Of a stretch of 64,000 nucleotides of DNA, positions 39,769-64,000 are shown piece after piece. Under the pieces are notes generated by a model. That model saw only the letters and a list, made by a program, of their open reading frames with translations. It was not told the origin of the DNA and did no database searches. A program made the translations under genes and the position numbers. Source of the DNA: Alicyclobacillus herbarius DSM 13609. Its GTDB lineage: Bacteria; Bacillota; Bacilli; Alicyclobacillales; Alicyclobacillaceae. Location of the stretch: assembly GCF_000430585.1 (NCBI RefSeq), contig NZ_AUMH01000011.1, positions 62,001-126,000 of the forward strand, in the 5' to 3' direction. Position 1 is the stretch's first letter, and each line of letters starts with the position of its first letter.

Positions 39769-40473
39769 TCACCAAGTAGTCGCCGACTGTCCTCCTCCAG
39801 CCGACTGTCCTCCTCCAACCGACTGACTTCCCCCAGCAGTGGTCGACTGCGCAGCACCCGCAGAATCACTCGCAGACTTCGCAAGGATTTTGCTGGCCTT
39901 TGCAGGGTCTATCTGGGCCAGGATGGGTCCGGAATCCGCAGCCGACATCTCCGCCACCACCTGTGCGGCTTCATCGATCGACATTTGCGCCAGAACCTTT
40001 GACGCCGCGTCCGGTCCCATTCCTTTCAATACCTTTGCCTCTGCTTGGGCTTTGGCCCTGACATCCTGCGCCTTGGCTATCTTCTGTTCAGTCGCGTGGA
40101 GTTGTGTTTCCAATCGCCGCTCCTTTTGCTTCTCGGACTGCAACGAGGTTTGCAGAGCCGCGTTTTGCCGTGTGAGCTTCTTCACTTGCTGCTGGCTTTG
40201 CGTAAGAGCGGTATGCAGCTGTTGAACCCGCATCTCGACTGTAGAACTCTGCTGAGAACCCCAGTGCACGCGAGTTTTTACAGTTTGCCAAACCGGAAAC
40301 CCAAGGAATTGCAGCGCGGCACCGACCATGACCACCGCGGCCAATAAGGGAATGACCACGACCATCACAAACCATACGAATTTGCGCGCCAGCCCGCTAT
40401 CCTTCCGGGACATGTCCTTTCTTGGCTCCGATGTCGTCGGACGGGATACGCGTTTTGGACTACCAGCTTGCAT
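39769..40473 (-). CDS. MotE/YlxF-like flagellar protein
   Basis: 234 residues: cytoplasmic basic N-terminus, one membrane helix (VWFVMVVVIPLLAAVVMVGAA), a long coiled coil (about 90-150), a MgtE-N-like domain (LKGMGPDAASKVLAQMSIDEA) and a Gly/Ser/Gln-rich tail with GGGQS repeats. YlxF/MotE proteins act as chaperone or scaffold for the stator in this operon position between fliJ and fliK. ATG 40473 is 8 nt from GGGAGG and overlaps fliJ. Confidence 0.85.
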   Translation of the reverse strand: MQAGSPKRVSRPTTSEPRKDMSRKDSGLARKFVWFVMVVVIPLLAAVVMVGAALQFLGFPVWQTVKTRVHWGSQQSSTVEMRVQQLHTALTQSQQQVKKLTRQNAALQTSLQSEKQKERRLETQLHATEQKIAKAQDVRAKAQAEAKVLKGMGPDAASKVLAQMSIDEAAQVVAEMSAADSGPILAQIDPAKASKILAKSASDSAGAAQSTTAGGSQSVGGGQSAGGGQSATTW

Positions 40474-62970: not shown

Positions 62971-63012
62971 CGTAGGTTTGGTGCAAGTCGCTGCCTGCGA
63001 CTCGAATGGCCG

Positions 63013-63363
63013 TTATGCGTTGGTGCGAATCTCTTTGATTCGCGCCGCCTTGCCCGAACGCCCGCGTAAATAGTACAGCTTGGCACGGCGCACGCGACCT
63101 CGCCGCATAACCTCAATCTTCTCGATGTTCGGCGAATGCAAAGGAAACGTCCGCTCTACGCCGACTCCGTATGAAATCTTCCGGACCGTGTACGTTTCAC
63201 TAATGCCCCCGCCCCGACGCCGGATGACAACGCCTTCGAACACCTGAATCCGTTCACGTTGTCCTTCACGAACACGGACATGAACCCGCAGTGTATCGCC
63301 AGGACGAAAATCCGGAATATCGGAACGCAGCTGCTCCTGCGTAATGGCACGCACCAAATCCAT
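63013..63363 (-). CDS. rplS: 50S ribosomal protein L19
   Basis: 116 residues at the 30S-50S interface: [54 protein letters not shown] and [18 protein letters not shown]. Start at ATG 63363, 8 nt after AAGGAGG; the upstream reading is not conserved. Own promoter at 63433-63462. Confidence 0.97.
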
Positions 63364-63432
63364 CGACACGGCCTCCTTCCCATCAGTGTTCGTACCAGAA
63401 TGCTGGCAGAGGACCACGTAGTCACGCGCACC

Positions 63433-63462
63433 AGTTTAACATAAACGATCTCAATTGTGCAA
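63433..63462 (-). promoter_or_regulatory. Candidate promoter of rplS
   Basis: TTGCAC (63457-63462) and TAAACT (63433-63438) are 18 nt apart on the minus strand, each with 4 matches to consensus. The leader would be about 65 nt. Confidence 0.5.
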
Positions 63463-63533
63463 TCACAGTGAGCGGCCATCATCCACTCGTACAAGCCCGC
63501 TGGCCCTAGACGACACCGGGCATACTACAAACA

Positions 63534-63555
63534 ACGGCGCCCAAGTGGGCGCCGT
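63534..63555 (-). terminator. Terminator after the riboswitch-controlled ORF
   Basis: Perfect 9-bp stem ACGGCGCCC/GGGCGCCGT with a 4-nt loop, 33 nt past the ORF stop, then TGTTTGTAG on the minus strand. It makes the riboswitch unit a monocistronic transcript that ends before the rplS promoter. Confidence 0.8.
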
Positions 63556-63587
63556 CCGCAACATGTGTATGGTCATCTTTACCTGTC

Positions 63588-63737
63588 TTAGGATAACGAC
63601 AGCGGACCCTCGTCCTCCATCGCATCCACCGATTCCGCATCGACACCTTCGTCCAACGGAGGCATGGAAATCCGGTTGAGCGATTTCACAATCTCGAGAT
63701 CACGAATCATCTCTGGCAATTCCGGCTGTTTCATCAT
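63588..63737 (-). CDS. 49-residue acidic ORF under c-di-AMP riboswitch
   Basis: A short ORF starting at ATG 63737, 7 nt after a strong GGGAGGG site, followed at once by a second ATG. Residues 1-25 look amphipathic and helical (PELPEMIRDLEIVKSLNRIS); residues 29-43 are strongly acidic (DEGVDAESVDAMEDE); overall 12 acidic against 4 basic residues, with no membrane segment or signal peptide. No known family recognised. It is the only gene between the riboswitch and a terminator, so it is the best candidate for the controlled product; a non-coding role for the transcript is not excluded. Confidence 0.6.
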   Translation of the reverse strand: MMKQPELPEMIRDLEIVKSLNRISMPPLDEGVDAESVDAMEDEGPLSLS

Positions 63738-63744
63738 GACAAGT

Positions 63745-63772
63745 CCCTCCCGATTTCACGGAAATGAAATCG
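63745..63772 (-). promoter_or_regulatory. Hairpin abutting the ribosome binding site
   Basis: A perfect 8-bp stem CGATTTCA/TGAAATCG (63751-63758 with 63765-63772) with a 6-nt loop ends exactly at the first base of the GGGAGGG site (63745-63751) of the 49-residue ORF. It may limit or set ribosome access after read-through of the upstream terminator. Confidence 0.55.
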
Positions 63773-63783
63773 CGAGTTCCGAT

Positions 63784-63817
63784 GAAAAGGAATGCTCGCC
63801 TGCCCACTCGGGCCGGC
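63784..63817 (-). terminator. Expression-platform terminator of the riboswitch
   Basis: GCC-GGCCC-GAGT-GGGC-AGGC-type stem (63798-63817, one internal mismatch) directly after the riboswitch core, followed on the minus strand by GAGCATTCCTTTTC. This is the position of the ligand-controlled terminator in ydaO-class RNAs, where c-di-AMP favours termination. Confidence 0.65.
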
Positions 63818-63819
63818 AC

Positions 63820-63934
63820 CCTACACGCTTACGGAGTTAGCTGACGGGTTAGGGAGTAGGTTTCCCCTCGCATACGCGATTCACCCCAAACGATTGGGTC
63901 CTCCGCTTCCGAGATGGAACTCAGCGATTTGAAG
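63820..63934 (-). promoter_or_regulatory. c-di-AMP riboswitch (ydaO-yuaA class)
   Basis: The minus strand carries the conserved blocks of this class in order: TCGCTGAG, GGAGGACCCA, TTTGGGGTGAATCG, an AGGGGAAACC/CTCCCT variable arm, and CCCGTCAGCTAACTCCGT followed by AAGCG, which closes P1 with CGCT. Members sense cyclic di-AMP and in Bacilli mostly control potassium transport and cell-wall hydrolase genes. Here it has its own promoter and precedes a 49-residue ORF. Confidence 0.93.
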
Positions 63935-63947
63935 TTAACGTAAGACT

Positions 63948-63976
63948 ATTATACGTCATTCCCTGACGTCTCGCAA
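63948..63976 (-). promoter_or_regulatory. Promoter of the riboswitch unit
   Basis: Perfect TATAAT (63948-63953) with TTGCGA (63971-63976) exactly 17 nt upstream on the minus strand. Transcription would begin near 63941, just before the riboswitch core. Confidence 0.85.
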
Positions 63977-64000
63977 ATCCCCCATGGCTGCATCTGTTCG

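Follow-up and report, generated by a model that had tools for sequence, protein, structure and literature searches.

On the minus strand of a 64,000-nucleotide stretch of the Alicyclobacillus herbarius DSM 13609 genome (the window; bases 62001-126000 of a contig with 134,658 bases), a c-di-AMP riboswitch stands before a gene for a small protein, and we consider it likely that the two form a single-gene c-di-AMP OFF switch in which the aptamer controls translation of a 43-54-residue protein of the Alicyclobacillus family. A translational OFF switch is the most likely arrangement because no terminator lies before the open reading frame (ORF) and a conserved strand can pair with either the 5' strand of the aptamer or the edge of the Shine-Dalgarno (SD) sequence. 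That the leader responds to the ligand, does so in the OFF direction and acts on translation is what we infer.

The ydaO-class riboswitch that an earlier note had recognized from the letters of the window is strongly matched by the covariance model of the c-di-AMP (ydaO/yuaA) aptamer (RF00379) at 63936-63812 on the minus strand (91.6 bits, where the gathering score is 38; E 3.4e-20; model positions 1-134 of 134), and this is the sole match above the gathering score in the whole window. A response of the leader RNA to c-di-AMP would follow from the aptamer class. At the level of domain presence, the same genome (G000) encodes two PF02457 diadenylate cyclase domains, and 40 of the 41 genomes of the family carry one. 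Six RF00379 copies occur in this genome; three of the others are followed by genes for an MFS transporter, a Na/H-exchanger-family protein and an ABC ATPase bearing a CBS domain (assigned by Pfam from fragments), and two more precede LysM proteins that resemble, by eye, NlpC/P60 and 3D-type wall enzymes. Transporter and wall genes of this kind are the usual targets of c-di-AMP riboswitches in the available text of PMC7266159. The two aptamers before the LysM-protein genes (L144 and L145) score lower, at 71.9 and 69 bits. Copy number varies among relatives, with 20 copies in G009 and 18 in G024 compared with 3-15 in the other genomes of the family listed, and neighboring pairs of c-di-AMP riboswitches, in tandem and in opposite orientation, were seen at G035:C118:39532-39661 with 39884-40014 and at G057:C1:597226-597390 with 597810-597999.

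The remaining features of the locus are all on the same strand. The sigma-A promoter proposed earlier is found as a promoter-like site, TTGCGA-17-TATAAT at 63976-63948 (10/12 match), and is statistically weak, as one such site was found against a shuffle mean of 0.6; many relatives have, by eye, a -10-like box 5' of the aptamer. Downstream of the aptamer, the ribosome binding site is present as described, with the SD GGGAGGG at 63751-63745, followed by the 49-codon ORF (63737-63588), which starts with ATG and encodes the conserved N-terminal motif PELP-x3-RD-x-EI-x3-L. The proposed terminator after the ORF corresponds to a terminator-like hairpin of ten pairs at 63556-63533, which taken alone is also statistically weak (one found against a shuffle mean of 1.1; neither this count nor that of the promoter goes much beyond shuffles) and gains weight from comparison, with a terminator-like site within 140 nt of the ORF stop in 26 of 34 genomes vs 46 of 340 shuffles. 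This recurrence indicates that the transcription unit is probably monocistronic, and, given a true promoter and a true terminator, its RNA would be about 400 nt long with the aptamer at its start. The span 63588-63976 given to the unit in the earlier note thus begins at the end of the ORF, not at its start, and leaves the terminator just outside.

The next gene in the window is rplS (from 63363; Ribosomal_L19 in Pfam). A conserved leader precedes it at about 63425-63365 and reads, by eye, GTGAxTACGGxGGTCCTCTGCCAG...GAACAC...GGGAAGGAGG, with counterparts at the same place in L093-L095, L098 and L100, including genomes without the small ORF. In the window this leader has no Rfam match, a laxer Rfam search of 63000-64000 returning nothing beyond the aptamer; the L19_leader model (RF00556) falls just under its cut-off in L084 and scores more weakly in L100.

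In the order and class samples searched by profile, the small gene was found in one family. A search with the single protein found a homologue in 14 of 61 genomes (own included), a profile built from those 14 rows reached 33 of the 41 genomes of the GTDB family (own included) in 10 of 16 genera, and a 32-row profile returned 33 members among 59 genomes of the order, all in the same family, with none in the 18 other genomes of the order. In 398 genomes sampled evenly from the class, 27 carry the gene, all 27 in this family and none elsewhere. G009 has an extra member at the same place, with a TTG start and N in place of the D in the RD motif (by eye), bringing the total to 34 members of 43-54 residues with 26 ATG, seven GTG and one TTG start. 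In the 32-row alignment (GTG starts written as M), M1, E6, L7, D13, E15, I16 and L20 are invariant and P5 and R12 nearly so. The pN/pS ratio is 0.10 in codons 2-24 (13 close pairs) and 0.48 in the tail (12 equal-length pairs), some genomes being used twice; codons 2-24 are under purifying selection, and the ORF is a real gene.

The protein itself resembles no family that we could name. Searches of Pfam, NCBIfam, PHROGs and the PDB gave no significant match: among 14 members the best Pfam E-value was 0.045 in one member and NCBIfam gave none, and for 32 members the best E-value was 0.035. A designed helical repeat in the PDB with a whole-sequence E-value of 0.0002 was rejected, as this value sums six 15-residue matches, none significant alone. 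A profile search for paralogues in five genomes (E up to 10) returned two weak matches beyond the gene itself (E 0.28 and 0.56). AlphaFold2 models contain little beyond one helix, which spans residues 7-20 when the single sequence is used (means of 10-residue blocks 78, 84, 62, 61 and 62; pTM 0.28) and residues 9-24 with 17 sequences (block means 78, 88, 62, 44 and 46; pTM 0.32). The protein had been called acidic, which holds for the window protein (net charge -8); since the tail carries no conserved charge and whole-protein net charge ranges from -11 to +8 across the 34 members, with 15 positive and two at zero, acidity is a trait of the species and not of the family. The small proteins of G001 and G002, from the same genus as the window, are identical to those of A. 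shizuokensis and A. kakegawensis (L139, L134).

Gene and aptamer occur together well beyond the window. A DNA pattern for the protein motif only, run over one genome per species in 84,980 species (a scan that may omit records close to the window's own genome), found 16 loci, of which one belongs to a Bacillota MAG and the other 15 to Alicyclobacillus. In each of the 16 the aptamer core lies 89-138 nt upstream. As the pattern accepts exact motif codons only and so misses members with changed motif residues, 16 is a lower bound. Within the family, the aptamer 5' strand and core both lie within 330 nt upstream in 32 of 34 members. The 40 readable genomes among the family's 41 divide into 32 with aptamer and ORF, two with the ORF and an aptamer remnant, and six with neither, the latter having no aptamer within 1.5 kb before rplS; of the seven family genomes that lack the ORF, G014 has a contig that begins too near rplS for an aptamer call. 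A complete aptamer without the ORF was thus found in none of the 40, which bears out the claim that the visible output of the riboswitch is one small protein. Of the two outcomes that the earlier note named as refutations, neither occurred: the covariance model matches strongly, and a relative with the riboswitch kept and the ORF frameshifted before a larger gene was not encountered in these genomes.

The two genomes with a remnant, G011 and G022, belong to one genus (g10) and retain the 5' strand, the switching strand and the ORF; covariance searches of 15-kb and 16-kb stretches found no aptamer in them. Their leaders (L078, L084) amount to a natural deletion of the core, about 75 nt upstream of the ORF, and loss of the core indicates that regulation is dispensable there. 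These leaders may be locked in the ON state, a reading that equilibrium folding does not favor, since it predicts a largely paired SD in both (P unpaired 0.19 and 0.18).

The surroundings of the gene are also conserved. Across 21 loci including our own, rplS lies downstream in 20, starting within about 1.3 kb (the contig ends in the other), and the upstream genes encode a 556-aa protein in 20 and a 251-aa protein in 18. The adjoining rplS described earlier is therefore conserved in its nearness; strict adjacency does not extend to seven of 20 loci (G004, G006, G008, G011, G019, G021 and G022), in which another gene stands between ORF and rplS, identified as HlyD-type by Pfam in the G004 copy only and similar by eye in the others. 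This HlyD-type membrane-fusion gene comes and goes at the junction and is also seen, by eye, before rplS in G028, G003, G018 and G007. Upstream, a trio of genes for a Wzy_C-type ligase and the 556-aa and 251-aa proteins (L045:6006-9755, window position 64005 onward) recurs in most of the 21 loci, and the latter two proteins have no Pfam match. The trio was considered as a partner of the small protein and rejected: it is missing in G017, which has the ORF, and the end of a protein of the 251-aa type stands before rplS in the ORF-less G010 and G012 (by eye), so that the trio is not required. The pairing of aptamer and small gene is kept in most of the Alicyclobacillus family and points to an undescribed c-di-AMP output.

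Between aptamer and ORF, the leaders share a strand that can take part in two competing pairings. In the window this switching strand (anti-aptamer/anti-SD; GGAACTCGCGATTTC, 63780-63766) can form a duplex of -20.0 kcal/mol with the aptamer 5' strand (AAATCGCTGAGTTCC, 63930-63916), a strength reached by none of 200 shuffles. On its other side, it can form a hairpin with the sequence running into the SD (63776-63747; -13.0 kcal/mol, z -3.5, for a fragment without the first C), which also appears in the local fold. Based on sequence, the aptamer-side and SD-side pairings are mutually exclusive. The conserved strand comes in two versions: 19 leaders have GGAAC(C/T)CGCGAT or a sequence close to it, and the 15 leaders of genus g4 have GGRACTTGGCTGA (TTAGC in one); it is complementary to the aptamer 5' strand (ATCGCTGAGTTCC), and the conserved element ends at the SD. 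An anchored pattern finds a counterpart in 34/34 leaders, and all 34 can form the SD-side hairpin from the same strand with at least six pairs (z at or below -1.64 in 30). In the region from aptamer to start codon, the aptamer 5' strand has the switching strand as its best partner in 32/32 anchored leaders, with a mean duplex energy of -18.2 kcal/mol and a mean z of -2.5; for 25 of these duplexes no more than 10 of 200 dinucleotide shuffles do as well, and for seven more than 10 do.

What would be expected of a translational riboswitch, one strand able to pair with the aptamer or with the ribosome-binding side and kept in relatives, is thus present, together with one compensatory change, two platform versions and many constant pairs. 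The first platform type has nine core pairs in 19/19 leaders and the second (genus g4) ten in 15/15, with flanking positions pairing less often (e.g., 13/19, 11/19 and 4/19). These constant pairs weigh little, because the aptamer strand is near-invariant and the platform was found by an anchored pattern. What weighs more is that G013 and G023 combine ATTCC in the aptamer with GGAAT in the platform, a compensatory change from G-C to A-T, that G016 combines GTCGC with GCGAC, and that the two platform versions, with little in common beyond GGRAC, each allow both pairings. As a control, we examined 26 of the 32 other RF00379 loci (leaving out L018, L025, L027, L028, L144 and L145); 24 were usable, two having no recognizable core, and their mean z was +0.3, with the aptamer strand poorly anchored in a few (L008, L143). 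L026 and L029 belong to the small-gene family. Four controls pair well (L030, z -2.7; L013 and L143, -1.9; L001, -1.5).

Equilibrium folding shows gating of the SD weakly. The mean probability that the SD is unpaired was 0.37 with the aptamer forced and 0.51 with the anti-aptamer forced, and was higher in the latter state in 27 of 32 leaders; these are equilibrium values, and real switching would be co-transcriptional. Genus g4 leaders were not clean in this model, and much of the SD remains accessible in the SD-side hairpin (mean P unpaired 0.61 for 19 leaders and 0.88 for 15). The window's own leader is among five that go the opposite way (0.21 with the aptamer forced and 0.18 with the anti-aptamer forced); modeled gating is thus absent for it, and this reduces our certainty in a translational OFF switch.

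The alternative that bears most directly on this point is transcriptional OFF control, with c-di-AMP inducing termination before the ORF and so controlling readthrough, as in kimA/ydaO and kdpFABC. The class prototype works in this way according to the available text of PMC6488665, the window leader can fold an additional GC-rich hairpin 5' of the switching strand, and the ungated SD of this leader would fit. The earlier note likewise placed an expression-platform terminator before the ORF. None lies between aptamer and ORF in the window, where the sole terminator-like site of 63000-64000 comes after the ORF, and the 32 leaders with a complete aptamer include just four with a terminator-like site before the ORF. 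Moreover, a T-run is present in 5/32 small-gene leaders vs 15/24 other c-di-AMP riboswitches, and the conserved element stops at the SD. The comparison points to translation instead of the terminator-based control proposed earlier, and we regard termination as unlikely.

Two further explanations would leave the protein without a function of its own. The ORF could be a leader peptide or entry point controlling rplS or the HlyD-type gene, its product being inert, as the conserved downstream order, with rplS close by in 20/21 loci, might suggest. We find this improbable, given that the protein is under purifying selection, that a terminator-like site follows the ORF in 26/34 genomes, that the next gene differs in 7/20 loci and that rplS retains its own leader in ORF-less genomes (by eye). 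Alternatively, the transcript could be mainly a small regulatory RNA or a c-di-AMP sponge with an incidental ORF, and its predicted shortness, with the aptamer at its very start, is consistent with such a role. The earlier note had offered a small RNA as a possible output; purifying selection on the first codons (pN/pS 0.10) makes this unlikely, and G011 and G022, which lost the core and kept the ORF, are the opposite of what a sponge predicts, so that we give this explanation very little probability. A translational OFF switch for a functional protein remains our preferred reading.

Under a translational OFF switch, the aptamer with bound c-di-AMP would hold its own 5' strand in the P1/P2 region, and the downstream strand, GGAAC(C/T)CGCGAT or the g4 version, would fold toward the SD and hinder initiation. 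A drop in c-di-AMP, which by analogy with other c-di-AMP regulons might accompany K+ shortage or osmotic upshift, would trigger the switch: the switching strand would pair with the aptamer 5' strand, the aptamer would be undone and the ribosome binding site freed. The OFF direction is expected from the aptamer class, as portrayed in the available parts of PMC6488665 and PMC9960051.

The targets of the other riboswitches in this genome lead us to expect that the small protein is made at low c-di-AMP and aids K+ or turgor recovery. We propose that it is an amphipathic-helix regulator, whose conserved N-terminal helix would bind a partner (as a conjecture, most probably a transporter, ion channel or c-di-AMP enzyme) and so help to restore turgor, with the C-terminal part serving as a variable tail. 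TrkH was considered as this partner; it occurs in 20 of 41 genomes, and many carriers of the gene lack it, so that it is not a general partner. More tentatively, the protein could be a lineage-specific second-tier effector, produced at low c-di-AMP through the translational switch, with a transporter or the c-di-AMP machinery itself as the target of its conserved 20-residue helix; we hold this possible and somewhat short of probable, and if true it would be a new kind of c-di-AMP output. A model for such an effector is MntS of Escherichia coli, a small protein of the MntR miniregulon that acts in ion homeostasis under transcription-factor control. Both proteins are small and would belong to an ion-homeostasis regulon, a likeness of role alone, whereas MntS answers a different signal through a transcription factor and the Alicyclobacillus protein is placed behind a riboswitch.

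The locus thus combines a known aptamer class with a new target family and an uncommon platform. Among the literature matches listed (titles and beginnings of abstracts) we found no record of the small gene, which may stand as a hypothetical protein in the gene lists of Nelson 2013 or Block 2010. In the literature compared, as far as the available texts describe the targets, and for the other five switches of this genome, the controlled genes encode transporters and wall enzymes, and the small protein stands apart from these. A protein without a known family that is kept beside the switch (32/34 members, with two remnants, and 16/16 pattern loci) represents a c-di-AMP output still to be characterized, and the locus supplies comparative evidence for a translational c-di-AMP platform. 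Both claims lend themselves to quick testing, since this is a small, free-standing gene, and the two genomes of genus g10 that lack the core and keep the gene provide a ready comparison.

Known c-di-AMP switches resemble this one in part. In Bacillus subtilis (ydaO/kimA) and B. thuringiensis (kdpFABC), riboswitches act on K+ importers by way of an intrinsic terminator (PMC6488665, available text). They share the RF00379 aptamer class with the Alicyclobacillus switch, and OFF logic is expected here as well; in contrast, the target here is a small orphan protein, and the hairpin terminator with its U-run, which in the prototype separates aptamer and gene, is not found before the ORF in the window and has a candidate in 4/32 leaders. 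A review, in the portion available, places ydaO among riboswitches grouped with ribosome-binding-site docking (PMC10907184). The one experimental precedent that we found for a translational c-di-AMP switch is that of Corynebacterium glutamicum nlpC, which is described in the available text of PMC9960051 as being without a canonical terminator and, by reporter data, most likely translational, an action that its authors state was previously unshown for c-di-AMP riboswitches. By that account the nlpC and Alicyclobacillus switches are alike in having no canonical terminator and in their probable level of action, supported by reporters for nlpC and by sequence comparison here, and they differ in that nlpC has a proposed pseudoknot between CTCC and the ribosome binding site and a cell-wall peptidase as its target, whereas the Alicyclobacillus switch would use a different pairing to control a small protein.
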